Shown here piece after piece: positions 4,208-53,255 of a stretch of DNA of 64,000 nucleotides. Source of the DNA: Bacteroides zoogleoformans (GTDB lineage Bacteria > Bacteroidota > Bacteroidia > Bacteroidales > Bacteroidaceae); contig NZ_CP027231.1 of the NCBI RefSeq assembly GCF_002998435.1, positions 785,001-849,000 on the forward strand, given 5' to 3'. A model generated the notes under the pieces. It was not told the DNA's origin and searched no databases. It saw nothing but the letters and a program-made list of their open reading frames with translations. Position numbers and translations under genes: made by a program. Every line of letters starts with the position of its first letter. Positions within the stretch are counted from its first letter, which is position 1.

Positions 4208-4274
4208 ATATGAGGCGTGCCGGCGGCGTGTCTCCGCCGTGTCCGCGCCACCTCCGCTCCGTATCCATATAAGC

Positions 4275-4400
4275 GGAGATTATACGGAGGTAATACGGAG
4301 GTGATACGGAGATGATACGGAGGTGATACGGAGATGATACGGAGCGGATACGGAGCGGATGCGGAGGAGATGCGGAGCGGATACGGAGATGATGCGGAAC
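4275..4400 (+). repeat. 11-bp tandem array, copy 1 (consensus GGAGRTGATAC)
   Basis: Eleven consecutive 11-bp units run from 4275 to 4395 without a length change, followed by a partial GGAAC. Variation is limited to the R position, GC in place of the second AT, and TGC for TAC in some units. An inverted relative (CTCCGCTCCGTATCC, about 4252-4266) precedes it. The array ends 60 bp before the -7 box of the ECF sigma gene. A similar array lies at 44966-45058, also upstream of a SusC operon. Confidence 0.9.
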
Positions 4401-38510: not shown

Positions 38511-39317
38511 TTAAAACAAGGTGCCATAGCTTTCTGCCAGATTGACTTTATCCCCCGATTTCACTTTACTCCAAACCAACTTCATAGGGTCTATCCACTC
38601 TCCGGTGGCGATATTCAGCATAACCGGAACTTCCCGGTTCCCATCTATCAGGGTGCGCCATTCCATACCATCCACCTCGTTGGCCAAAATGACGCAGAGC
38701 ACGATGCCCAAGGCCAGCCATGCTTCTTTCTTTTTCGGGGCGATGCCTCCTTTATCTATCACCTGCTGCATATTGGCAATATCTTCCTCCACTCCCTGAA
38801 AGTCTTTCTTCAGCAACTCCTTCACAGTGGCATCCACCCATTCGTAGGCTTCATTGATTTGATATATCTCCGAAAGACGCACCGGAATGATTTCTGCCGG
38901 GTATTTAACTCCTTCCTTACGCACTTCCAATGACGCGATAACCTTCTCAGCCTCTGCCATCGGCTCTCCTTTCTTCACCGTAAACGAACATTCAAACGCC
39001 GTATCTCCCTCCCCCGTTATCCAAAGGTGAGAGGTATAATAACTGCCCTCTTCCTCGAACATCTCCTTACTGTAGGCACACTCCCGATTTCCTATTCTGA
39101 CAAGAGTGGCCGACGGATTTTCTTTCAGTTCTTGCCGGACAGCATCTTTACCGTACGTCGCATTTCCTTTATAAGCCGAAATACGGAAATTACCCGTCCA
39201 TTCCGACGGATGATAGAAAAGGAAAGAACCTTCCCCGTCTTCAAACTCGTTCCAGTCTGCCGGATATGTCATAGAAAACCATGCTCCCGGAGAGATAAAT
39301 TTCTTGTTTTGTTCCAT
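38511..39317 (-). CDS. DUF3805/DUF3806-type hypothetical protein
   Basis: A 268-aa protein without a signal peptide. The N-terminal domain (about 8-135, opening PGAWFSMTYPADWNEFED) resembles the DUF3805 family and the C-terminal part (about 145-265, with WLALGIVLCVILANEVDGMEW) the DUF3806 family, both common in Bacteroides and of unknown role. It has its own excellent promoter at 39393-39424 and a roughly 70-nt leader. The gene ends 26 nt before the ABC-F start and may be the first gene of that operon. Confidence 0.8.
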   Translation of the reverse strand: MEQNKKFISPGAWFSMTYPADWNEFEDGEGSFLFYHPSEWTGNFRISAYKGNATYGKDAVRQELKENPSATLVRIGNRECAYSKEMFEEEGSYYTSHLWITGEGDTAFECSFTVKKGEPMAEAEKVIASLEVRKEGVKYPAEIIPVRLSEIYQINEAYEWVDATVKELLKKDFQGVEEDIANMQQVIDKGGIAPKKKEAWLALGIVLCVILANEVDGMEWRTLIDGNREVPVMLNIATGEWIDPMKLVWSKVKSGDKVNLAESYGTLF

Positions 39318-39424: not shown

Positions 39425-39465
39425 CAAACGAAACAAAAACAGCCGATTCTCACGAACCGGCTGTT
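39425..39465 (-). terminator. terminator of susCD operon 1
   Basis: On the minus strand AACAGCCGGTTC and GAATCGGCTGTT pair (12 bp, one G-U) around a GTGA tetraloop, followed by TTTTGTTTCGTTTG. The loop and inner stem are identical to the terminator of operon 2 at 51144-51192, while the outer stem pairs differ in a compensatory way. Confidence 0.85.
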
Positions 39466-39605
39466 GCAATCATCATCTATGAATGAAGACCTTGAAAGCC
39501 TTCAATGCCTATATTTAACTCAATAAAAACTATACATTTCACACTCGGAAACAAAAATAATCAATGCGATAAACAATAGACAAACATTTTAGAAATATTA
39601 TAAAT

Positions 39606-41468
39606 CTATTCTTGATCAGAATCCCACCAGACATTGATGGTGAAAGCGTCATCCTCCGTATTCCACATGGTAGATGCCATGTTTGCACCCGGCACTTGAG
39701 CACCGATAGCCTGTAAGTTTTTAGAATTGTAATTAAACTCGTGAGAACAATGCATCCAACGGCGATAGTATTTCCCCTCAGGAATACGCTTCAAACCATC
39801 GGCACTTATTTTGTGATATGCAGGAACACCCCATCCTAAGAAAATTTCAGGGTCAAAATCATAGCGACGCATATCATTCCATATTTCCACGGAGAAATGC
39901 AAGGCAATACGCTTTTGAGTCATAATCTTACCCAAAGTCAAGTCACTGGCCGTACCAATGCCGTTAGCTAAGAAATTATCAATATCCGCCTGTTCCATTG
40001 GAGTGAAAGACGGACACGATTTCAGTGACGCATCATCCGCACACCATTTATTCAATTTCTCATTCATACAATCAATGCTTGCCTTAATGCCATCTCTGTA
40101 TGCTGTAAATGCCCCGTTTTTATCATTCCGTTTGAATAGCACTTCAGCTTTGATAAAGCAGGCTTCAGCATAAGTTCCTACATACGTCGGCGAAGATACA
40201 CGCGTATAGAAAGAGCCCGATTCTCTTGACGCATCCGTATCTTTGAGTCTTCTATACAATAAGTCCACGTTCGAGTTATAACCTTTGCTGCTACTCGTAG
40301 CTTCTACGTAGATTGTATCACCCTTACGGATATCGGCCTGGGTATTGATATACCAACCACCTTTACTCAAATCAAAATCAGCTCTTAATGGGCCGCCTGT
40401 CAAATTAGGCGCAGCATCGGATACCATATCTACCCCCAAAGAACGTCTCCATTCATTCTTGAATTTTATGTTTGCAGGTGAAGCGGCTGATTTTTGCGAC
40501 CAGGCCCATGGTATGACTTTATCCGCACGCGGATCTTCTACACTTAATCCGGCAAAGTTGGTCAGGTTATCATAAAGCATCTTTGTCACCATGTAGCCGC
40601 CATTCATTCCACATACAGAGAAAAGCGGAGAGTAATCAACCGGTTCATCCCAGCCCAGTACGTCATGAGTAGGGCCATTATCATCTGTGTGATTGATAAT
40701 CGTATTATCGGCATTACTCTGTTGAGCTTTGGCCAAACAAGCCAAAATCTCTTCCGCATCATATTTACCTTCCTTATAGCTACCTGTTGCCTTTTTAGAA
40801 AGTTTGTTGCAATAACGAGCTTTCAATAAATAGGCCAATTTCAACCATTTGTTGACATTCCCGCTATTCCAGAAGTCCCCTTCAGCCAAAGTGGGAAGCG
40901 CAACATCCTGTTGCTTCTGCAAATGTTCAATACCTTCATCCAGCTCGTTCAGACACCCTAAATAAATGGTCTTTCCGTTATCGTACGCCGGAGTAGCACT
41001 TTGGCCCAATGCTTCAGTATAAGGCATTTCTCCATATAAATCAGTCATCAGCATAAAGCCATAGGCGCGAATCACCTTTGCAACTCCCGCATAGTGCCAG
41101 GCACCTGCCGACACGGCTTTTTTATACATATCTTCGATGTTTGAACCCGCACCGACAAACCACCACTGATAAGGAGTGGTAGAAGGCCCATATTTGGTAG
41201 CCCAAACGGGATTCCAACAAGACATTTGCCAATAAGTACCTCCATTGAAATTTCTCGTCCAATCGCCCATAGACATACTGGAACGCCAAGCGGCAAACTG
41301 ATTGGCACTGTTCGTATAAAATTCGATATGGGCCAAACGTGTCTGATAGTTAGTGCTCTCTGAAGACGGATGTTCAGGGTCGATATTGACATTCAACCAA
41401 TCACTACAAGAGCTCAGAGAAAGCATCAGCAGACTCGCGCTACATAATAATGTCTTTATAGATTTCAT
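39606..41468 (-). CDS. SusD-like lipoprotein, operon 1
   Basis: A 620-aa lipoprotein with signal peptide and lipobox LSSC near residue 21, then DWLNVNIDPEHPSSES, the start typical of the SusD_2-like group. TPR-like helices (WHYAGVAKVIRAYGFMLMTD) and the C-terminal segment with QKRIALHFSVEIWNDMRRYDFD are well conserved. It should form the surface lid of the SusC encoded 28 nt upstream. No catabolic genes adjoin, so the ligand cannot be inferred. Confidence 0.94.
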   Translation of the reverse strand: MKSIKTLLCSASLLMLSLSSCSDWLNVNIDPEHPSSESTNYQTRLAHIEFYTNSANQFAAWRSSMSMGDWTRNFNGGTYWQMSCWNPVWATKYGPSTTPYQWWFVGAGSNIEDMYKKAVSAGAWHYAGVAKVIRAYGFMLMTDLYGEMPYTEALGQSATPAYDNGKTIYLGCLNELDEGIEHLQKQQDVALPTLAEGDFWNSGNVNKWLKLAYLLKARYCNKLSKKATGSYKEGKYDAEEILACLAKAQQSNADNTIINHTDDNGPTHDVLGWDEPVDYSPLFSVCGMNGGYMVTKMLYDNLTNFAGLSVEDPRADKVIPWAWSQKSAASPANIKFKNEWRRSLGVDMVSDAAPNLTGGPLRADFDLSKGGWYINTQADIRKGDTIYVEATSSSKGYNSNVDLLYRRLKDTDASRESGSFYTRVSSPTYVGTYAEACFIKAEVLFKRNDKNGAFTAYRDGIKASIDCMNEKLNKWCADDASLKSCPSFTPMEQADIDNFLANGIGTASDLTLGKIMTQKRIALHFSVEIWNDMRRYDFDPEIFLGWGVPAYHKISADGLKRIPEGKYYRRWMHCSHEFNYNSKNLQAIGAQVPGANMASTMWNTEDDAFTINVWWDSDQE

Positions 41469-41496: not shown

Positions 41497-44400
41497 TCAG
41501 AATGTCAAGTTCAAGCCAAAGGACATGCCCGAAGTGGCAGGAACTCCACAATAGTCAAAGCCTACTGAAGATGAGCCACCCACACCGGCACCGGCCGCAG
41601 CCACTTCGGGGTCGCCATCATAGTTGGTAAACAGCAGCAAGTTCGTGGCCGATGCGGATACGGAAGCACGCTTGACGAACCCTATTTTCTGAAGCCACTT
41701 TTTAGGCATCTCATAAGAAAGAGAAACCGAACGAAGTCTCAACAAATTTACTTTCGTAATATAATTCCCCGTTTCTTTGGAATAGAAGTTCTGGTAGTAA
41801 TCTTTGATAATGTTATAACCGCTTTTTTCTACCCCATTGAATACATAAGATTTGTTTGCTTCCCATGTATTACTAACAGCATTGCCGGCAGCATCTACAC
41901 CGGTCACCGTTAATGGTTTGTTACGGATGTCTGCCGAGAACTGGCTCACACCCGAAAGATCCATCGAATATTTTGTACCATTGATAACGTCACCGCCTAC
42001 ACGATACTCCCACAGCATATTGAAGGACAAGCCCTTCCATGTAAGCGTATTGTTCAAGCCACCGGTAAACTTAGATTCACGATTGCCCACCTCGGTAAGC
42101 CCGGAAGTATAGGTCGGCATGCCATTGGCGTCTAATATTACATTACCCGCTTCGTCTCTTTGCCACTTGGTTCCGGCAATCGCCATGAAGTTACCGCCGT
42201 TGAATGAAGCAGCCTGCGCACCGGCATATTGAACATCTGTCACATACATCACATCCATGCCTTCAGGCAGTCCATCCAACGTACCTCGATTGCCTGCCAT
42301 ATTGAACCCTATGTCCCATGTGAAATCTTTGGTCTGAATGGGAGTACCTGAAATAGACAACTCCATACCTTTATTGTAGACATTGCCGGCATTGATAGAA
42401 CAGAAAATATAACCGGTGGACTGAGGACCGCGCGGAGAAAGAATCTGATTGTAAGAATCGTTGGTATAGTAAGCATAGTCAATGTGCAAACGGTTCTTGA
42501 AGAAGCTCAGTTCAATGCCTATTTCCGTAGATTTGGTCATTTCCGGTTTCAAATAAGGATTACCGCGTGTCCAACTGTTACCTACACTGACAATATTATT
42601 CAAGAAAGTACCTACCGGCCAAAGGGATGTCGCAGTTTCATACACACCCGTGTCTTTACCTACCTTTGCCCATGATGCGCGAATCTTACCAAAATTCAGT
42701 ACATCATCCGACATCCATCCCAACTTCTGAAGCATTTCCGTGAATACGAATGAGCCGCTTACCGAAGGATAAAAATAGGAACGGTTCTCGATAGGCAAAG
42801 TAGAAGTCCAGTCGTTACGTCCGGAAACAGTCAAGTAAAGCATGTTCTTCCAAGAGGCACGGAATTCGCCGAACAAGCCTACAAGCCTCTTTTTAGTAGG
42901 TTCGTTCAAGAATTGTTTATTTGAATTGGTGGTATTGGCATACGAGAAGAAATCAGGCACAGAAAAATTATAGCCTAACTTGAATGTGCTATGAGTCTTT
43001 ACCTCGTCAATAGTCGAACCTAACAACAGATTAAAATCAAAATCACCGAAGGTCTTCGACATATTAGACATGAAATCATGCGACATATAACGGAATTCCT
43101 TGCTGTTGTCACTCAACATGCCTTTTTGCCACACCTGCTTGAGCACGCCATTGGCGGCCAATCTGTTGGAAGCCGTTTGAGTATATTGGTCCAAACCTAC
43201 TTTATAAGATAAAAACCACCATTTGGCAATGTCCGCTTTGACACTGATGGCCCCGGTAAAACGATACGTGTTGTCATAGATGTGATTTTTATTGACAATC
43301 CAATATGGATTATCTTCCTCGTCCCACGGGTCAAGACGATCGCCAAACATACGATAACGCGAACCATCTTCATTCAGATAATGTCTCATATCATCAAACG
43401 AAGACCAATTGTAGACACGATATAAAGCTCCGTTACCGGACGAGCCATACAGGCCTGCTCCCGTCAAAGTTCTGTCGGTATGGGCGTCAGAATATGCCGC
43501 ATTCGCGCTGAAGGTAAAGATTCCGACATTCTGCTCTCCATTAAAACGGAAAGCATATTTGCGATAACCTGTTTCAGGCACGACGCCTGCTTGGTCATAC
43601 AATGAACCGGACAGATAGTACTTACTTTTTTGTGTACCACCCGACACACTGGCACTCTCATCGAAAATATTACCGGCTTGGAAGAAGTTTCCTATATTAT
43701 CATACGTTTGAGCTTTTGACTTTTCACCCCACGAACTATATGCGAAGTCGTTGAATACCGTACCTATATATTTTTTGTCTTTATCATATTGATCCTCCAT
43801 ATAGCCTCTGGCATACTCTGTCTGGTATTTAGGCAGACTTTTCACCCAAGAACTCGTAAATTTAGAATTGATATTTACTTCCACCACTCCCTCTTTACCT
43901 TTTTTAGTTGTAATCAGAATCACACCATTAGCGGCACGCGAACCGTAAAGTGCCGCGGCGGCAGGCCCTTTCAGAACGGACATGTTTTCAATATCTTCCG
44001 GGTTAATATCCATCACGCGGTTAGAGGTAGTAGAAGCAGAACGCATAGAACCGTCAAACGCCGAATTGCCGATTACGGAAGAGGAGTTGTCATAAATCAC
44101 TCCGTCAACCACAAACAAGGGTTGATTATCTTTGCCCTCCGAACCGGATGTACCACCGCGAAGAATAATCTGTGCACCGGCACCGGCGGCACCTGAAGAC
44201 TGGGTGATGTTAACGCCTGCCACTTTTCCGGATAGTGATGAAATCGGATTAGCTGTCTTAATCTTCATCAATTCCTCGGACTTTACTTCTTGCATGGCAT
44301 ATCCCAATGCCTTCTTTTCTTTCTTGATACCCATAGCCGTCACCACCACTTCGTCCAACGCCTGCGAGTCATCTTGCAAGGTTATTGCATAAGAAGAAGC

Positions 44401-44706
44401 ATTCGTTACTTTCACCGTTGCGGCTTTGTAACCGATAAAAGAAATCTCCAATGTACTACCTACCGACGCATTCACTGTGAAATTTCCGTCAATATCCGTC
44501 ACGGTACCGGTACCGGAGCCTTTCACCAGCACACTGGCACCAATGACTGGCTCACCTGACGCATCTACAACTTTACCTGTGATTTTCTTGGCTTGCTGAG
44601 TGCTGTAGGAACTCTCCACATCTTCTGCGGCTGCTGTAGCGAAAATAGGCGAAGCTATCCCAAACAATGCAAGCATCATTAATGATAAGCAATAATCTCT
44701 TTTCAT
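41497..44706 (-). CDS. SusC-like TonB-dependent transporter, operon 1
   Basis: A 1,069-aa outer-membrane protein. A signal peptide (about residues 1-26) precedes a carboxypeptidase-like regulatory domain (about 42-115, KITGKVVDASGEPVIGASV), a plug with DEVVVTAMGIKKEKKALGYA and LFVVDGVIYDN, and a barrel ending in Phe. There is no STN domain, so regulation is not by FecR-type signalling. The first 45 codons and the leader are 93% identical to those of the divergent susC at 45173. Cotranscribed with the SusD-like gene downstream. Confidence 0.95.
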   Translation of the reverse strand: MKRDYCLSLMMLALFGIASPIFATAAAEDVESSYSTQQAKKITGKVVDASGEPVIGASVLVKGSGTGTVTDIDGNFTVNASVGSTLEISFIGYKAATVKVTNASSYAITLQDDSQALDEVVVTAMGIKKEKKALGYAMQEVKSEELMKIKTANPISSLSGKVAGVNITQSSGAAGAGAQIILRGGTSGSEGKDNQPLFVVDGVIYDNSSSVIGNSAFDGSMRSASTTSNRVMDINPEDIENMSVLKGPAAAALYGSRAANGVILITTKKGKEGVVEVNINSKFTSSWVKSLPKYQTEYARGYMEDQYDKDKKYIGTVFNDFAYSSWGEKSKAQTYDNIGNFFQAGNIFDESASVSGGTQKSKYYLSGSLYDQAGVVPETGYRKYAFRFNGEQNVGIFTFSANAAYSDAHTDRTLTGAGLYGSSGNGALYRVYNWSSFDDMRHYLNEDGSRYRMFGDRLDPWDEEDNPYWIVNKNHIYDNTYRFTGAISVKADIAKWWFLSYKVGLDQYTQTASNRLAANGVLKQVWQKGMLSDNSKEFRYMSHDFMSNMSKTFGDFDFNLLLGSTIDEVKTHSTFKLGYNFSVPDFFSYANTTNSNKQFLNEPTKKRLVGLFGEFRASWKNMLYLTVSGRNDWTSTLPIENRSYFYPSVSGSFVFTEMLQKLGWMSDDVLNFGKIRASWAKVGKDTGVYETATSLWPVGTFLNNIVSVGNSWTRGNPYLKPEMTKSTEIGIELSFFKNRLHIDYAYYTNDSYNQILSPRGPQSTGYIFCSINAGNVYNKGMELSISGTPIQTKDFTWDIGFNMAGNRGTLDGLPEGMDVMYVTDVQYAGAQAASFNGGNFMAIAGTKWQRDEAGNVILDANGMPTYTSGLTEVGNRESKFTGGLNNTLTWKGLSFNMLWEYRVGGDVINGTKYSMDLSGVSQFSADIRNKPLTVTGVDAAGNAVSNTWEANKSYVFNGVEKSGYNIIKDYYQNFYSKETGNYITKVNLLRLRSVSLSYEMPKKWLQKIGFVKRASVSASATNLLLFTNYDGDPEVAAAGAGVGGSSSVGFDYCGVPATSGMSFGLNLTF

Positions 44707-44738
44707 AAGCTCTGTTTTTATTTGGATTTATTTGTAAA
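44570..44738 (-). repeat. 169-nt inverted repeat, left arm
   Basis: The reverse complement of this stretch aligns without gaps to 45141-45309, with 158 of 169 positions identical. It covers the susC-1 leader, signal peptide and codons up to about 45. Identity stops abruptly at both ends of the alignment (GGTAAAGT inside the genes; TTTAC/TTTGC at the outer promoter side). Confidence 0.92.
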
Positions 44739-44767
44739 TATATGATTTTTTTCAATAATTACACAAA
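44735..44767 (-). promoter_or_regulatory. putative promoter of susC operon 1 (imperfect -7)
   Basis: TTTG (44764-44767), 21 nt, then TATATTTA (44735-44742) on the minus strand. The last G of TAnnTTTG is replaced by A, so this should be a weaker promoter than the one driving the divergent operon. Confidence 0.45.
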
Positions 44768-44965
44768 CGAAAATATTAAAAAATATAAAATAAAAATTAA
44801 TTTACATCTTCTGCAATTCCATAGTTCTTGGATGCAGTACCAATAGACAATCATCATCCATAAATGAAGACCCTTAGAAACTGTTTTTTGAATCTCATAT
44901 CCCAACCGTATCAAAGCCGTGTCTTCCCCATATCAACTCCACATCTATAGAAACGAAAGATATAC

Positions 44966-45058
44966 GGAGATGATACGGAGGTGATACGGAGATGATACGG
45001 AGATGATACAGAGGTGATACGGAGGTGATACGGAGGCAATGCGGAGATGATGCGAAAC
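44966..45058 (+). repeat. 11-bp tandem array, copy 2 (consensus GGAGRTGATAC)
   Basis: Eight successive 11-bp units from 44966 to 45053 plus a partial GAAAC. The units and the ends (GGAGATGATGC then G-AAAC, compared with GGAAC) match the array at 4275-4400, and the left flanks (CTCC..ATC.ATA..A.CG) are related as well. It lies in the middle of the spacer between the two divergent susC genes, 79 bp before the plus-strand -7 box. Confidence 0.9.
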
Positions 45059-45112
45059 AGGTAGAACCCGAATCATACTTTAGCGTTTATTTACTCTTTT
45101 TAATACATATAA

Positions 45113-45144
45113 TTTCTCTTTTTCTAAAATAAATTATAAGTTTG
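45113..45144 (+). promoter_or_regulatory. putative promoter of susC operon 2
   Basis: The -7 box TAAGTTTG (45137-45144) fits TAnnTTTG. At 20 nt upstream there is only TTTC (45113-45116) instead of TTTG. The -7 box straddles the outer end of the inverted repeat. The leader to the ATG at 45173 is about 25 nt. Confidence 0.5.
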
Positions 45145-45309
45145 CAAATAAATCCAAATAAAAATAGAGCTTATGAGAAGAAATTATTGCTTATCATTAA
45201 TGATGCTTGCATTGTTTGGGATAGTTACTCCTATTTCCGCTACAGCAGCCACAGAAGGTGTAGAGAGTTCCTACAGCACTCAGCAAGCCAAGAAAATCAC
45301 AGGTAAAGT
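45141..45309 (+). repeat. 169-nt inverted repeat, right arm
   Basis: Partner of 44570-44738 (158/169 identical, no gaps). It carries the leader, signal peptide and first 45 codons of susC-2. Because the match has no indels, exchange between the arms would preserve both reading frames. Confidence 0.92.
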
Positions 45310-48300
45310 AGTAGACAACGCCGGGGAACCGGTAGTCGGTGCCAATGTTGTAGTGAAAGGGACAAGTAATGGAACAATTACAGATGTAAACGGCAATTTC
45401 ACTTTGTCTGTTCCACCTAAAAGCAGTTTGAACGTATCTTTTATAGGATATAAAACCAAAACTGTAACTATTGGAAATCAAAACCAACTGACCATTGTAT
45501 TGGAAGAAGACGCCAATATGCTGGGCGAAGTAGAAATTACCGCCGAATTCGGTATGAAACGTGTAGCACGTTCCGTAGGTTCGTCCGTACAGAATGTAAA
45601 AGCGGCGGATATCATCGAGTCCGGTCGAGACAATTTTATTTCAGCCCTACAAGGACGTGTATCAGGAATGAATGTATCCTCCAGTGGAGGCGCTCCGGGA
45701 TCTTCCACAACAGTAATATTGCGCAGCATAACTTCTATCTCCGGTAATAACCAGCCGCTATATGTAGTGGATGGAATTCCTATGAACAACTCTACTTTCG
45801 ACCCGAGCTCGTTTGCCGATGCCGGAGCAAATTTTTCGAGCCGTAATCTGGATTTTGCATCAAGAGGTAATGACTTCAATCCCGAAGACATTGAAGCTAT
45901 GACCATACTGAAAGGCGCAGCGGCAGCGGCTCTTTATGGTTCGGACGCATCCAATGGAGCTATTATTATCACCACTAAAAAGGGCAACGCGGGAAAAGGA
46001 CGTGTAACCTACAGTAATAGTTTCCGCTGGGACAAAGCCTATGGATACCCTGAAATGCAAACCAAATATGCACAAGGTGCTTACGGAACGACCAACTATT
46101 ACTACACAAGCCGCTACGGCGGACTTTATCCGGAAGGAACAAAATTATATGACAATATTGATGCGGTGATGCAAACCGGATTCACCGGCAGACACAACAT
46201 TGCAGTCGAAGCCGGAAGCGAAAAAACGACTCTTCGCGCCGCAGCCTCCTTCCTTGAGCAAACCGGTGTTGTCAAGACCACAGACTATGGCCGTACAAAC
46301 CTGACACTCTCCGGAAAAGCCGATATCACCAAATGGATGAAGTTCGAGGCGTCCATGCAATACACCTCGACCACCAATTCAAAGACACTGCGCGGCACAG
46401 CGGGCCCGTTATATCTTGCCATGCGCTGGCCGATGGTGGATAATATGGCAAATTATCTCAACAAAGACGGATCACACATGCGCATGCCCGACTATTACAC
46501 GGATACAGACCTGCTGAACCCACTGTTCGGGTTATATAAAAACAAATATTATGATGAGTCGGATCGTTTTCTATCCAATGCAGCAATTACCATCAGGCCG
46601 ATAAAGGAAATTTTCCTCCGTGCCCAAGTAGGATGGGATGTCGGCACACAGGCTTTCGAAACCTCAAATCATCCTTACTACTCGAACAACAACGCCGGTT
46701 CAGGATATTATAACTTGGCAAAGTCCAACTTCTCCGACCCCACTCTGAATATCCTGGCCGGATATAACAATGAGTTCTTCAACAAGAAGTTGACATTTAA
46801 TGCGCAAGTAGGTTATCACCAGATAGAAAATGGTGTGACACGTCTATCTACTTACGGAACGAAGTTCGCCGTCCCGGATTTCCAATCAATCAACAATTGC
46901 GACCCCACCACCATTGCCAGTAAGAAACGTACCACCAAACGACGCGTGCAAGCTATTTCGGCACAAGCCGAGTTTGGCTACAACAACATGGCGTTTCTCA
47001 CTCTGCGTGCCCGTAACGACTGGTCGTCTACATTGCCGAAAGAAAACAATTCTTATTTTTATCCGGCAGCCGAATTTGCATTCGTTGCTACAGAACTTCC
47101 TTTCTTAAAGAAAAACAAGTATATAAATTACCTGAAACTACGCGGTTCAGTGGCCCAAGTGGGAAAAGACGCCGGCCCGCTGGAGATTGATCCGGAACTG
47201 GAGCCTACCGGGCTTTGGGGAGGAGGTTACAGCTATGGTTACACCGGCCCGAACAAGAACTTAAGACCGGAAATGACCACTTCGTGGGAAGCCGGATTTG
47301 AAGGACGTTTCTTCAATGACCGTATTGTTGCAGACTTTACTTATTTCCGCACCCATTGTTCCGACCAGATTGTAAAAGGTTTCCGACTGAGTTATGCAAC
47401 CGGCTTCGTTCTAAATAACATGAACGTCGGTACATTCAACACCTGGGGTTGGGAAGCTCATATCGACGGAGATATCGTCAATCAAAACGGGTTACGCTGG
47501 AATGTGGGCATGAACTTATCACAAACCGACTCGAAAGTGGTATATCTGCCTGAAAATGTAAGCGAATACTATAACGCATACACATGGAATTCAGGCAACA
47601 TCCGTAACGGCATCATGGTAGGGAATCCTGTTACTACCCTGACAGGACGCGCATACAGCCGCAACGAAAAAGGAGATATTCTGATCAACCCAACTACAGG
47701 ACTTCCCCTCGTAGACGAGAAATGGTCTGTCATTGGTAATCGCGAGCCCAAGTTGCGCTATGGCCTTACAACCTCATTATCATGGAATGGTCTTCGTTTT
47801 TCCGCCATGTTTGCCGGCCGTTACAAAGCAACCGTCGTAAATGGAACCAAACGTACCATGATGACCACCGGCACAAGCTGGGAATCGGTGAAACTTCGCG
47901 AAAGCGGCCCGATCATCTTCAAAGGAGTATTGAAAGATGGAAAAGAAAACTCCGACAAACCGACTCCCAATAATATTGCGGTGGATTACAAGATATACGG
48001 TGCCTCTATTTATGGTGGAGGAGATGAAGACTGGCTTGAAAAAGATGTCAACTACCTGCGTCTGCAGGAGTTGAGACTGTCATATACAGTACCCAGCAAA
48101 TATCTGAAGAAAGTCTTCAGCGGACTAATCAGCAATGCCAACATTTACTTATGTGGTAATGATCTTTACACTTGGACCAACTATTCGGGCATCGACGCCG
48201 TAGGAAATACCGTATCTGCGGCTGCCGGCGGCACCGGCGGTGAGGGTTATGACGTATGGTCACTCCCCAACCCGCGCAGCATCTCATTCGGCATCAGCCT

Positions 48301-48313
48301 GACTTTCAATTAG
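45173..48313 (+). CDS. SusC-like TonB-dependent transporter, operon 2
   Basis: A 1,046-aa outer-membrane transporter. A signal peptide (about 1-26) nearly identical to that of the divergent SusC is followed by a carboxypeptidase-like regulatory domain (about 42-115, KKITGKVVDNAGEPVVGAN), then a diverged plug (EVEITAEFGMKRVARSVGSS; PLYVVDGIPMNN) and a barrel ending in LTFN. No STN domain. Beyond about residue 46 it differs substantially from the divergent copy, so the two transporters probably take up different ligands. It is followed at 27 nt by its SusD partner. Confidence 0.95.
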   Translation: MRRNYCLSLMMLALFGIVTPISATAATEGVESSYSTQQAKKITGKVVDNAGEPVVGANVVVKGTSNGTITDVNGNFTLSVPPKSSLNVSFIGYKTKTVTIGNQNQLTIVLEEDANMLGEVEITAEFGMKRVARSVGSSVQNVKAADIIESGRDNFISALQGRVSGMNVSSSGGAPGSSTTVILRSITSISGNNQPLYVVDGIPMNNSTFDPSSFADAGANFSSRNLDFASRGNDFNPEDIEAMTILKGAAAAALYGSDASNGAIIITTKKGNAGKGRVTYSNSFRWDKAYGYPEMQTKYAQGAYGTTNYYYTSRYGGLYPEGTKLYDNIDAVMQTGFTGRHNIAVEAGSEKTTLRAAASFLEQTGVVKTTDYGRTNLTLSGKADITKWMKFEASMQYTSTTNSKTLRGTAGPLYLAMRWPMVDNMANYLNKDGSHMRMPDYYTDTDLLNPLFGLYKNKYYDESDRFLSNAAITIRPIKEIFLRAQVGWDVGTQAFETSNHPYYSNNNAGSGYYNLAKSNFSDPTLNILAGYNNEFFNKKLTFNAQVGYHQIENGVTRLSTYGTKFAVPDFQSINNCDPTTIASKKRTTKRRVQAISAQAEFGYNNMAFLTLRARNDWSSTLPKENNSYFYPAAEFAFVATELPFLKKNKYINYLKLRGSVAQVGKDAGPLEIDPELEPTGLWGGGYSYGYTGPNKNLRPEMTTSWEAGFEGRFFNDRIVADFTYFRTHCSDQIVKGFRLSYATGFVLNNMNVGTFNTWGWEAHIDGDIVNQNGLRWNVGMNLSQTDSKVVYLPENVSEYYNAYTWNSGNIRNGIMVGNPVTTLTGRAYSRNEKGDILINPTTGLPLVDEKWSVIGNREPKLRYGLTTSLSWNGLRFSAMFAGRYKATVVNGTKRTMMTTGTSWESVKLRESGPIIFKGVLKDGKENSDKPTPNNIAVDYKIYGASIYGGGDEDWLEKDVNYLRLQELRLSYTVPSKYLKKVFSGLISNANIYLCGNDLYTWTNYSGIDAVGNTVSAAAGGTGGEGYDVWSLPNPRSISFGISLTFN

Positions 48314-48340: not shown

Positions 48341-50218
48341 ATGAAAAGATTATCAATCATAACAATCTTAGCGGCAATATTGTCATTTAATAGCAGTTGC
48401 GACGACTATCTGGATGTGAACAAAAACATCGATGCCCCCGACTATGTAGAAGGATACCTGTATCTGTCGGGAATCATTCAGAATTACCAAAGCCTCTATT
48501 ACGACATACGCGCCGTAGGTCCACTCACACAGATGATGGGTACCGGTGGTTACACCAGTTTTGCAAGTAATTATTACGTTCAGGGATCGGATGCAGGAGC
48601 TGAAGTTTGGAGAATGGTGTATTGGCTGCAAGGCATGAACTTGGAAAATCTTATCAACCAATCGATAGCCAATGAAGAATGGACAATGGCAGGTATCGGT
48701 CTGGCCATTAAGGCTTTCAGTTGGGATAGACTGACAAAATACCACGGCGAACTCCCTATGAAAGAAGCCTTTGTTCCGAACTTGCTATCGCATAAATATG
48801 ATAGTCAAGAAGATATTTATGCACAAGTAAAAGAATGGGCGTATAAATCCATTGAATATTTGGAAAAAGAAGATACCCATAATTATGGGAACAAAATCAC
48901 TGACAACGATTGGATATACAAAGGCGACAAAAGTAAATGGATAAAGTTTGCTTACTCCGTTATAGTACACAACCTGGCTTCACTCTCCAACAAAAAAGAT
49001 TTTGTCAGTAAATATGCGCCGGAACTAATAGAATGTTCAAAAAAAGCTTTTCAAAGTCCTGATGACGATGCAACCGTAGCCTTGGACGGGAAAGGAGAAA
49101 GCTCTGCGGAAAGTGTATATAATAACTTTTGGGGAACTTACAGAGGCAATCTCTCAAGGTCTTACTTCCAGCATGAATATGCTGTTCAGGTAATGACCGG
49201 AAGTATTCCTAAATACGATGAACAGACCGGAGAGAAGTATCGGGTAGAGAACAATGATTACTATCCATACGAGCTTGCCGATAAACAGATAATCTGCGAT
49301 ACACTGAAGGACGTGACCGGACACTATGACCCGCGTATGGCCGTAAAGTTAGGTACAGCCGACGACCCTACCTACAAGAACATTGACAACGCAGACAGTG
49401 TAAAAGCGTATCGGTATTACGGCGGTTCTTTTACCACAAACAGTGGAGCGATAGGAGCAGCATCCACTTTCTACGGACGTTATGGAAGTTCACAATACAA
49501 AGGAGACGTGCATGACGGGAAAGGCCGCTGGCTGTATCGCGACGATGCTCCATACATATTAATGACGTACGCCGAAATCAAATTCTGCGTGGCTGAAGCC
49601 AACTACAAGATGGGTAATAAAGATGCCGCATTGCAAGCTTTCAAAGAGGGGGTAAAAGGCGACTTGTACTTCTGCGAACGATATATATACCCCGGAACTC
49701 CCGGACAGGCAACAGGTGGTGATAAAATCACAAAAGAAGTATTCAAGAAGCTGGCTACGGAATATGCGAGCGGTCCTTATGTAGAAGGTATGACAACCAA
49801 TGAACTGACCTTATCGCACATCATGATGCAAAAATGGGTGGCACTCTATCCTTGGGGGGCACACGAAGCATGGGTGGATATGCGCAAGTACCATTACGAC
49901 ATAAAGTACACGGGTGAATATCCCCAATTGGGGAACGGATGGTCTGAAACCATGATAGACCAAAAATGGGATACGGATGAATCGAAAGTATATAAAGGAT
50001 TCTATCTGGCTCCGGCACAAGTACAGAATCGTAAAGGACAATATAACACCCGCAATCAAGGTTCACCTTGCTACAGAGTACGCCCGCGCTATAACTCGGA
50101 ATATATGTGGAATGCTCCTTCGCTCGATGCCCTACGCCCCATCAGTGGAAGAGCGGACAACTACCATTGTTCCATTCCTTGGTTTGCATATCCGGGCGAA
50201 ATGCCGACAAATCTATAA
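48341..50218 (+). CDS. SusD-like lipoprotein, operon 2
   Basis: A 625-aa surface lipoprotein with lipobox SFNSSC near residue 20 and the typical DDYLDVNKN start. Helical TPR-like parts (WTMAGIGLAIKAFSWDRLTK) and a C-terminal segment (LSHIMMQKWVALYPWGAHEAWVDMRKYHYD) identify the SusD family. It pairs with the SusC encoded upstream. The ligand is unknown. 37 nt separate it from a small lipoprotein gene. Confidence 0.94.
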   Translation: MKRLSIITILAAILSFNSSCDDYLDVNKNIDAPDYVEGYLYLSGIIQNYQSLYYDIRAVGPLTQMMGTGGYTSFASNYYVQGSDAGAEVWRMVYWLQGMNLENLINQSIANEEWTMAGIGLAIKAFSWDRLTKYHGELPMKEAFVPNLLSHKYDSQEDIYAQVKEWAYKSIEYLEKEDTHNYGNKITDNDWIYKGDKSKWIKFAYSVIVHNLASLSNKKDFVSKYAPELIECSKKAFQSPDDDATVALDGKGESSAESVYNNFWGTYRGNLSRSYFQHEYAVQVMTGSIPKYDEQTGEKYRVENNDYYPYELADKQIICDTLKDVTGHYDPRMAVKLGTADDPTYKNIDNADSVKAYRYYGGSFTTNSGAIGAASTFYGRYGSSQYKGDVHDGKGRWLYRDDAPYILMTYAEIKFCVAEANYKMGNKDAALQAFKEGVKGDLYFCERYIYPGTPGQATGGDKITKEVFKKLATEYASGPYVEGMTTNELTLSHIMMQKWVALYPWGAHEAWVDMRKYHYDIKYTGEYPQLGNGWSETMIDQKWDTDESKVYKGFYLAPAQVQNRKGQYNTRNQGSPCYRVRPRYNSEYMWNAPSLDALRPISGRADNYHCSIPWFAYPGEMPTNL

Positions 50219-50255: not shown

Positions 50256-51110
50256 ATGAGAAGATTTAAATATATATTTCTATTTTCAGTCTTAACACTG
50301 GGAATGGCTTCATGTGAAAAGCATGAGATAGAATACATGAGCACGCCGGTAGAAAAAGGTATGGCTGAAATACAGTTGCATTATTTTGTTCCTGTCACTG
50401 CTGTAGCCGGCAACAATATCTATAAAATGGAAATCGGAGGACAAGAATACGTGAATAACGGTGCAGCGGTAATCAGCACCTACAATGCAACCCCTTCGGG
50501 AAACGTAGGTCGATTTTATGTCGTGAAAGCAGGAGATGTAAACATCAAGCTATATCAAAGCAATAAACAGCAGCTTGTGTATGATAAAAATATAACGCTC
50601 GGCGTGGGCAAACAAAATGTATTTGTATACGACTTCGACAAAGAACCGATTGTTTTTGACAATGGCTATCCTTACGAAACCAATACCACAATGGATACAG
50701 ACAGTACCTGTTGGGTAAAGTTCTATCACTTCATGTATGAGAAAGAAGGGGAATACTGTCCGTTGAAACTGCAATATCAATACCAATACACCATATCCAA
50801 AGATGTGAAGAGCGACTGGATAAATATTGGCGGACCGATTGGCTTCGGCGAAACGACCGGATGGCAACCCGTAAAAATAAAGAAGAACGTCTTCAATTCG
50901 GAGGGATATACCCGCATCGACTATAAGATTAAGGTACAAGATGCCAACGGCGAATATACGGAAGAGTTACAAGTGTGGAACTCGAAAAGTAAATACATAC
51001 CATATTCCGATTATTGGAACGGCTATATAGGAAGGCGTTACCACCATATCCTGAAAGGTATGCGCTCGGCAAAACCCATTGCCTCGGTAAGCCAATTCAT
51101 TGCCTTATAA
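50256..51110 (+). CDS. surface lipoprotein of unknown function, third gene of operon 2
   Basis: A 284-aa exported lipoprotein with lipobox GMASC near residue 20, followed by a beta-rich region (about 35-135, AEIQLHYFVPVTAVAGNNIYKMEIGG, written here in overview) resembling DUF4397-type domains and a second beta-rich half ending SVSQFIAL. In position it matches SusE/F-like accessory binding proteins, but I cannot assign a family with certainty. Expressed with SusCD-2, and its 3' end is followed by a bidirectional terminator. Confidence 0.75.
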   Translation: MRRFKYIFLFSVLTLGMASCEKHEIEYMSTPVEKGMAEIQLHYFVPVTAVAGNNIYKMEIGGQEYVNNGAAVISTYNATPSGNVGRFYVVKAGDVNIKLYQSNKQQLVYDKNITLGVGKQNVFVYDFDKEPIVFDNGYPYETNTTMDTDSTCWVKFYHFMYEKEGEYCPLKLQYQYQYTISKDVKSDWINIGGPIGFGETTGWQPVKIKKNVFNSEGYTRIDYKIKVQDANGEYTEELQVWNSKSKYIPYSDYWNGYIGRRYHHILKGMRSAKPIASVSQFIAL

Positions 51111-51204: not shown

Positions 51205-52404
51205 CTACTTCCCTATCGGTTGTATTTTTCTTCTCACCTCTTTTGAAATCTCAAGGAACATGTAGTTCAACTTGCCGGAATGGATTTCCTCTTTATTCTG
51301 CTCATACTTTTTGTTGGCATATTCCTTGGACTTATCGAATGTGATGCGCGACATCTGGTTCTGTGACTTACCTAACATCGTCGAGTCCAATTGCTCGTCA
51401 GGAAAGAAATCATCCAAATCGACATCTCCAATCATGGTTGTCTCAAGAAAGTTCATGCCGCTATGGTTTGAATCCGTGTAGTAACCTACAAACATGTGCC
51501 CGGGAATACGTACCAGAATCGGCTCGATGTTGATGGCTCGAAGCAAAGAGGCAAACAGTACACTGCCGTCCACGCAATTGATCTGTGAAGATTGGAGTGC
51601 ATCATCAAACGTACGGACACGCTGCGAGAAAACCACATTGCTGGAAAGGCTGGTATTGGACACCGAGCTATAACGGAAACTACGTTTCTGCAACACATTC
51701 CATAAGGCATAAACCTGTTTGTCCACCGCTTCGGGCTTACGGGCCTGATATCCCAGAAAACGATTGACGATACGAGTATTCAATGCTTCGCGCAACAGTT
51801 GGTCTATCATCGGATTTTCTTCGTTGACATAAGCGGCAAAAAAGATACCGGTGTCGTGAAATTTGGTACCGCCGGTGACGTAGCCCAACAAGCATTCGTT
51901 CAGGCTACGAACGGAAAAAGTACGCACACTCTGACCCATACTTTCACCGTTTACCTCTACCGTTACAACCACACTGATTGGTTCAGGTTGATTGTTATGC
52001 TTCAAAGCTTCATAGTTCCAGATAAGATCGGGATAAATGGTGTATTCAGTTCTCGACTTTTCAAGCACAAATTCAGATACGGAACGAGAGAAGAAAGGGG
52101 TTTCGCCCACTTCTATCCGGACACGGCTGTAAGCCTTTCCCGAACGCATACGAACAGCGATGCACGACTTAGGATTACCCACATATATGGAATCGGTAGG
52201 GATAATGACTTGTGCATCAGTGGTTGCCACCGAAAGAATGCTGGAAGGAAATATGTTACCTCCCAAATCATCGACAATCTTAAAACCGGAACGGAAAGAA
52301 GAGGCATTCACCCAAATACCTCCCGCCACAACCAATAGCGCCACAATCAACAGCAAGTAGTGCTTCTTACAATAATCTCTACTTATACGTACAAGACTTC
52401 TCAT
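51205..52404 (-). CDS. membrane-anchored transglutaminase-like protein
   Basis: A 399-aa protein with one N-terminal membrane helix (about 16-35, YLLLIVALLVVAGGIWV), a beta-rich exported region, and a transglutaminase-like papain-fold domain at about 215-345. The expected nucleophile is the Cys in QINCVDGSVLFASLLR, followed by RIPGHMFVGYY with the His. An acidic partner may be in the VDLDDFF region. Its substrate is unknown; such domains can act as peptidases. It runs convergent to SusCD operon 2, and its upstream -7 box is at 52424. Confidence 0.8.
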   Translation of the reverse strand: MRSLVRISRDYCKKHYLLLIVALLVVAGGIWVNASSFRSGFKIVDDLGGNIFPSSILSVATTDAQVIIPTDSIYVGNPKSCIAVRMRSGKAYSRVRIEVGETPFFSRSVSEFVLEKSRTEYTIYPDLIWNYEALKHNNQPEPISVVVTVEVNGESMGQSVRTFSVRSLNECLLGYVTGGTKFHDTGIFFAAYVNEENPMIDQLLREALNTRIVNRFLGYQARKPEAVDKQVYALWNVLQKRSFRYSSVSNTSLSSNVVFSQRVRTFDDALQSSQINCVDGSVLFASLLRAINIEPILVRIPGHMFVGYYTDSNHSGMNFLETTMIGDVDLDDFFPDEQLDSTMLGKSQNQMSRITFDKSKEYANKKYEQNKEEIHSGKLNYMFLEISKEVRRKIQPIGK

Positions 52405-52536: not shown

Positions 52537-52567
52537 TTTGTTTTCAAAGAAAAAATCTTTATCTTTG
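52537..52567 (+). promoter_or_regulatory. promoter directly upstream of the cobalamin riboswitch
   Basis: TTTG (52537-52540), 19 nt, TATCTTTG (52560-52567): a full match to the Bacteroidetes consensus. Transcription would start at the first riboswitch helix. Confidence 0.85.
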
Positions 52568-52569
52568 CA

Positions 52570-52751
52570 GTGCATTGGTTTGCCATCCTTATCCAAGGAT
52601 GGTAATTAAAAGGGAATCAGGTGCAAATCCTGAACAGTCCCGCTGCTGTAAGTTTCATAAAATGCTACAGGCAATTACCTCTATGCCACTGGAAATCCCC
52701 TTTCCGGGAAGGCGCCTGAAGCTGAAACAAGTCAGAAGACCTGCCATGCAC
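52570..52751 (+). promoter_or_regulatory. cobalamin (B12) riboswitch, orphan
   Basis: The aptamer hallmarks are in order: AGGGAATCAGGTGCAAATCC, then ACAGTCCCGCTGCTGTAA, the B12-box-like ATGCCACTGG, CGGGAAGGCG and GTCAGAAGACCTGCC. The closing helix is GTGCAT (52570-52575) with ATGCAC (52746-52751). It normally controls B12 uptake or synthesis genes. Here no recognisable gene follows on the plus strand. Two hairpins follow: AAATAAACT/AGTTTATTT at about 52851-52873 and a terminator at 52878. Confidence 0.9.
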
Positions 52752-52877
52752 ACTTTTATCATTGCTTTCGAGGAAAAAGCGTTGAGTTTAATGAAGCGGA
52801 CAAGGCGTCCTCCTATCATTTCATTCACCAAACTTGATTCAAAGAAAGTAAATAAACTCTGCCAAGTTTATTTGATG

Positions 52878-53064: not shown

Positions 53065-53255
53065 ATAGAAAGCCGCACCGATGATGTGATGAAACTCCGT
53101 ATGACATGATTTGAGTGCTCGTCCTCTTTGTAATCCACCGACTCAAAGGTTACCCCGAAGGGCGTGGCCCGCCATCAAGAAACGAAACTTGTCTCGGTAT
53201 TTCATAAAACTTGATGAGTTTCCCGATCCAATCAATGCGGCTATTTTTTTCATAA

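Follow-up and report, generated by a model that had tools for sequence, protein, structure and literature searches.

Divergent susC genes of Bacteroides zoogleoformans share a leader and likely form a two-headed derivative of a SusC inverton

The divergent genes for SusC A and SusC B of Bacteroides zoogleoformans open with nearly the same leader, and we think it likely that this locus derives from a SusC leader inverton and is now two-headed and probably locked. The form seen in related species comprises a single leader segment—promoter, 5′UTR and signal peptide—between two inverted 15-bp sites, of which one lies around codon 31 of the expressed SusC, in frame with it, and the second either starts a divergent, leaderless SusC body or adjoins a neighbouring gene. 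Inversion, presumably carried out by a tyrosine invertase, would hand the leader over to the other body or, where only one exists, remove it from that body. In the lineage of B. zoogleoformans and Bacteroides heparinolyticus the leader stands at both ends, such that SusC A and SusC B would keep a promoter and signal peptide either way. We infer that in B. zoogleoformans the switch has become locked in a state where both genes are on, that B received its leader as a copy from the A side, and that the likeness of the arms is maintained by conversion between them. As far as sequence comparison goes, the view that the locus is by descent a SusC inversion locus is supported.

The DNA analysed, here called the window, is the 64,000-nt stretch 785001-849000 of the single-contig, 3.36-Mb B. 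zoogleoformans genome, and coordinates below are those of the window. SusC A (TonB-dependent receptor, 1069 aa; 41497..44706, minus strand) is followed by SusD A (SusD-like_2; 39606..41468, minus), and SusC B (TonB-dependent receptor, 1046 aa; 45173..48313, plus) by SusD B (SusD-like_2; 48341..50218, plus). The two SusC proteins are 35% identical. A 284-aa protein without Pfam match lies 3′ of SusD B (50256..51110, plus) and accompanies B in genome G052 and in B. heparinolyticus as well. Two genes served as flank markers of the locus: gene X (399 aa, without Pfam match; 51205..52404, minus) and a DUF3805/DUF3806 gene (38511..39317, minus). In a scan of genome contigs, from which records of the window's own genome were possibly excluded, the closest named relative was B. 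heparinolyticus DSM 23917 (SusC A 96.5%, SusC B 93.4% aa identity); its two records, L023 and G104, are identical over the stretches compared. Beside gene X lie a cobalamin riboswitch (52558-52762, plus) and a Bacteroidales-1 (suggested 6S) RNA (53065-53242, minus). A candidate BTnc231 RNA at 39436-39537 was rejected, its match being under the gathering score.

A first-pass annotation had described a gap-free inverted repeat around the susC starts, and pairwise comparison and a repeat search agree with it on the coordinates, the identity and the 402-bp spacer. Arm A (44570..44738, minus) and arm B (45141..45309, plus) are identical at 158/169 positions in inverted orientation with zero gaps, the spacer between them (44739..45140) holding the divergent upstream regions and a repeat element; the repeat search extended the pairing to 44477-44752 and 45127-45402 (276 nt, 83%). 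Chance can be excluded for this likeness, because in a BLAST search of the whole B. zoogleoformans genome the top non-self match of each arm was the other arm (E = 1.7e-70). Blocks of 20 nt are identical at 15-20 positions within the arms and at 8-16 outside. Each arm covers the 5′UTR, the signal peptide and the first ~46 codons of its gene, in line with the earlier description of leader, signal peptide and about 45 codons, and the genes indeed diverge just past the arms: the two coding sequences are identical at 128/138 positions in codons 1-46 and at 1193/2682 in the far part (Fisher p = 4e-32). The arm is a unit of promoter edge, 5′UTR and signal-peptide leader. With reference to the Bacteroides −7 box consensus TAnnTTTG, as given in PMC4747536, a putative box of SusC B, TAAGTTTG (45137..45144, plus), fits and straddles the outer edge of arm B, and that of SusC A, TATATTTA (44735..44742, minus), is one base off. 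A 47-bp run at 45263-45309, free of any difference between the arms, contains a recombination-site-like 15-mer, AGTTCCTACAGCACT (45266..45280, plus, in arm B; identical at 44599..44613, minus, in arm A). This 15-mer is one mismatch away from AGTYYYN4GDACT, reportedly the motif of the invertase Tsr0667 (Nakayama-Imaohji et al. 2009), a string without match in the literature text searched.

The leader recurs across the genus. A sequence-only model, R1, was built from 13 aligned 5′ ends, including four of B. zoogleoformans and B. heparinolyticus, and, with 47 bits as the lower limit for a strong copy, matched 31 of 158 Bacteroides genomes: two copies each in B. zoogleoformans, B. heparinolyticus (G104) and G173, and one in each of the other 28. 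At a looser threshold, applied to 119 genomes, no match fell between 47.2 and 28.5 bits, both searches using strict filters by which weak copies can be lost. In B. zoogleoformans the model matched the two arms (44653-44752 and 45127-45225, i.e. G000:C1:829653-829752 and G000:C1:830127-830225) and nothing else. Gene X and/or DUF3805 adjoin many of the leader copies. A leader common to all susC genes is out: of the 42 further above-cut-off SusC genes in the B. zoogleoformans genome, 41 yielded a start for comparison and all 41 lacked it, with a best agreement of 41/90 positions (L113 yielded no start, nor did L148, L149 and L150 below the cut-off). Folding gave no sign of a structured RNA in the leader, the consensus energy being −3.74 kcal/mol with no pair changed on both sides.

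Sites fitting the Tsr0667 motif flank the leader in some relatives. Across the stretches fetched for all 31 leader loci, a scan for exact sites found inverted 15-bp sites on both sides of the leader in ten (G018, G047, G048, G062, G071, G072, G088, G133, G152 and G173), one flanking site lying in frame near codon 31 of SusC. G052 has two sites, on two contigs; five loci have a single site (G094, G125, G144, G148 and G157, the contig of the last stopping just above the leader); and 14 of the 31, B. zoogleoformans and B. heparinolyticus among these, have no exact site at the joint. In G053 the pair lies solely upstream of the leader, as two near-palindromic AGTTC...GAACT sites (L234:2702 and 3505) that would invert the upstream region alone.

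The arrangement of leader and bodies differs among these loci. In G088 and G072 the sole leader faces away from the SusC body (OFF), its frame stops after 37 aa, and the body aligns only from residue 32; in G062, G048 and G071 there are two divergent SusC bodies with the leader on one alone. We inverted all ten site-flanked leaders in silico and followed the leader frame. It went from 37 to 1068 aa in G088, from 1065 to 106 aa in G018, from 1065 to 85 aa in G047 and, now on the opposite gene, from 1080 to 1078 aa in G062 and from 1074 to 1065 aa in G048, making five clear cases of in-frame leader transfer. Transfer was partial in G072 (37 to 436 aa, the body itself broken) and G071 (132 to 607 aa, both bodies broken). 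It was not shown in G152, where the frame went from 1052 to 47 aa because the A body, directly beyond the site, is in a different frame, nor in G133, whose three-site locus includes a run of N (from 1145 aa to 156 or 91 aa). G173 was neutral, inversion altering nothing. The SusC 5′ end of G133 is partly duplicated in a small-shufflon-like manner, with the N run at one of its sites (L220:5282, 5477, 6640).

The same A/B pair is found with opposite leader states in two deposited assemblies, every state reported here being that of one deposited assembly and one assembly per species. In G052 (Bacteroides sp. UW_MP_BACTE3_1 contig, L024) the leader is on A and B is leaderless; A and B stand at facing contig ends, with gene X adjoining B and DUF3805 adjoining A, as in the window, and are presumably neighbours across the contig gap. 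In G152 (locus of Bacteroidaceae bacterium HV4-6-C5C, L044) the leader is on B, A is leaderless, and the two sites are 15/15 identical. G094 has A alone, with gene X on one side and DUF3805 on the other. In G102, which has no strong leader match, contigs stop three bases or fewer from two sites, as might be expected if assembly failed at a segment of mixed orientation.

SusC B itself is composite. Its codons 1-46 are 71-80% identical to those of A-type genes (G090, G094, G051, G018) versus 46-47% (G109, G070, G075) and 41% (G042) for B-type genes elsewhere, and past codon 46 the relation is reversed, with 69-76% nucleotide identity to B types elsewhere (69-71% to the four just named) and 44-45% to A types. 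Thus, in both B. zoogleoformans and B. heparinolyticus, SusC B joins a 5′ end of the A family to a body of the B family. Between these two species (z and h in what follows), SusC A differs at 30/138 positions in codons 1-46 and at 186/2682 in the far part (p = 6e-8); SusC B has no such excess (15/138 vs 349/2682, p = 0.5). In codons 1-46, zA is 93% identical to zB, 88% to hB and 78% to hA. The divergence inside the arm indicates gene conversion, and either zA or hA has probably been overwritten since the two species separated. Copying from B to A in B. zoogleoformans would be the simplest reading of the zA-hA excess, although zA and hA are equally far from the A gene of G094 (82% and 83% identical), so that this direction is not proven and either may be the changed copy. 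The A/B pair of G052 has another stretch in common (45/45 at nt 105-149 of the aligned codons), which points to a separate exchange.

The first-pass annotation had proposed that inversion would swap the two promoters while keeping both frames. As an account of a live switch, in which a tyrosine recombinase or homologous recombination inverts 44599-45280 today, we consider this unlikely. The part about the frames holds: with the segment inverted in silico, both the 1046- and the 1069-aa frame survive. The sites are identical in both arms and lie within the identical run, and the genome has 13 matches to the tyrosine recombinase family PF00589. None of these falls within 785001-849000, so the remark that the window lacks a recombinase gene is true of tyrosine recombinases. 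It is no argument against inversion, since Tsr0667 of B. fragilis is described as the driver of shufflon-type inversion in three SusC/SusD clusters and in nine regions besides (PMC4747536) and can hence act from afar. Ten of the 13 matches were compared with NCBIfam (the others being L238, whose frame was judged wrong-stranded, L243 and L244), and none was named an invertase above cut-off.

Several observations speak against a switch that is still thrown. A Tsr0667-type inverton would have one leader and an alternative silent body, an inverted pair of motif-fitting sites, and an in-frame joint of leader and body after inversion; the window locus has the in-frame joint, but both genes are led and each arm has its one mismatch to the Tsr0667 motif. 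With the leader already on both genes, a flip would probably turn neither SusC A nor SusC B off. The two sites of B. heparinolyticus agree at only 11/15 positions. The AGTTCC subset of the motif occurs 6 times against 8 for the backward control pattern in B. zoogleoformans, 3 against 11 in B. heparinolyticus, 6 against 9 in G088 and 10 against 5 in G047, i.e. genome-wide it is not above the control in the first three; inverted pairs of it number none in B. zoogleoformans, none in B. heparinolyticus, two in G047 and one in G088. Finally, the leader-proximal spacer has the same orientation in both species. Global alignment of the 150 nt upstream separated orthologous from crossed pairs weakly (zA-hA 73/114, zA-hB 67/114; zB-hB 52/114, zB-hA 51/114), and a local alignment test was therefore used. 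For the 110 nt beside each gene it scored 63 for zA-hA versus 38 for zA-hB, and 43 for zB-hB versus 26 for zB-hA. As the orthologous scores exceed the crossed ones, each upstream region appears to have stayed with its own gene; the zA-hB score also exceeded all 500 shuffles, an excess for which AT-rich sequence may account. At the diagnostic spacer positions from −150 to −76, 4 were of the orthologue and 6 of the crossed kind, favouring neither orientation.

The twin-leader form might also constitute a distinct, recurrent type of switch, in which inversion swaps promoters between two SusC/SusD systems rather than turning one on or off and arm conversion keeps the joints compatible. We regard this as doubtful. 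SusC A and SusC B each carry the leader in both B. zoogleoformans and B. heparinolyticus, and G173 offers a second kind of twin, with 227-nt, 100% identical arms that each contain leader and site, one leader being on SusC and the other pointing toward gene X. Between the twin leaders of G173 (L281:7241-8763) are open frames of 342 and 128 codons that look transposase-like by eye.

An account without any inversion history, in which B came to lie next to A and the A leader reached B purely by homologous gene conversion, which also keeps the arms alike, is improbable in our judgement. It would draw on the conversion signal between the orthologues zA and hA and on the different matching stretch of G052. 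It leaves aside, however, that this locus in relatives shows SusC bodies lacking a leader, leaders that point away and inverted site pairs in frame, and that G052 and G152 have one and the same A/B pair with the leader on A in the former and on B in the latter. The derivative of a leader inverton is the reading that we retain, with conversion acting on its arms. Counting against it are the leader loci that lack a flanking pair of exact sites, the broken frames of G152 and G133 after inversion, and the AGTTCC counts in B. zoogleoformans, B. heparinolyticus and G088, which do not exceed the control.

A further alternative holds that the arms are alike merely as a conserved post-transcriptional target, e.g. 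of FopS-type sRNAs, which might act alongside a switch. Codon choice lends it something: among the A-type genes of 11 genomes, same-residue codon agreement is 0.81 in codons 2-16, whereas 199 other codon windows average 0.44 (sd 0.05) and none exceeds 0.60, a strong synonymous constraint that also marks the leader as a conserved element. Besides, FopS is described as binding susC start regions in B. thetaiotaomicron (PMC11697453), where the surroundings of the start codon are a control point as they may be here. Yet the leader is missing from the 41 other SusC starts compared in the B. zoogleoformans genome and from B-type genes elsewhere, unlike the targets of FopS it is tied to an inversion site and single-copy in most genomes that bear it, and the gathering-level Rfam matches within the window include no FopS-type sRNA (no Rfam accession was found for FopS). 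We thus give this explanation little credence. Recent inverted duplication of one susC with subsequent divergence of the bodies would yield near-identical arms around a divergent pair but is hardly credible, the bodies being of different SusC types, with 35% protein identity and the B body much nearer to B types elsewhere than to A types; of the first-pass alternative of duplication or 5′-limited gene conversion, it is conversion of the 5′ end that the data indicate, and simple gene duplication is out.

The leader loci resemble the Tsr0667 systems in that the sites of ten related genomes fit the Tsr0667 motif. They are also alike in that SusC/SusD expression would be varied by DNA inversion, as set out for the B. 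fragilis shufflons and invertons in PMC4747536 and PMC11852207. They differ in that they occupy for the most part a single locus, next to gene X and DUF3805, which in several species has a one-leader toggle, and the window form differs further by its two leaders and off-motif sites. The invertible promoters of Bacteroides (Mpi, Tsr19/BF2766), as PMC4747536 presents them, likewise have a promoter moved between inverted repeats; here, in contrast, the start codon and signal peptide move along with the promoter, and the joint falls within the reading frame.

Which nutrients a gut or oral Bacteroides can import, and which surface it presents to phage and host, depends on its phase-variable SusC/SusD systems. 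Among the species compared, a single locus shows the leader on either transporter, pointing away or on both at once, a natural series in which to study how a stochastic switch arises, is flipped and may become fixed. The locus also cautions that a divergent susC pair with near-identical arms is not necessarily a functioning switch.

The spacer contains an interspersed element of 11-bp units (44896..45064, plus; array 44962-45049) with the unit ATACGGAGRTG, a further window copy of which lies at 4271-4391. It occurs in at least 39 further places in the B. zoogleoformans genome (40 of 67 candidates were scored), mostly outside long ORFs and in 36 of the 39 as arrays of three or more units, and many copies carry a short inverted set of the same unit. 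Weaker matches were present in three of eight other genomes (B. heparinolyticus, G051 and G009). The layout recalls the BrickBuilt minisatellite MITE of Porphyromonas gingivalis, described in PMC4596501 as a multicopy, mostly intergenic tandem-repeat element; the unit of BrickBuilt is 23 bp versus 11 bp here, and the likeness is one of copies and layout alone. The B. heparinolyticus spacer holds a different repeat element (L023:9360-9450) with a 22-nt (2 x 11) period, which had 37 matches in B. heparinolyticus (its own place counted), 14 in B. zoogleoformans, 2 in G094 and 1 in G052. Hairpins of TACGGA-type 11-bp repeats also adjoin gene X in G088, G072, G133 and G057 (L218:6897-7079, L219:6904-7009, L220:8157-8339 and L236:7913-8050, respectively).
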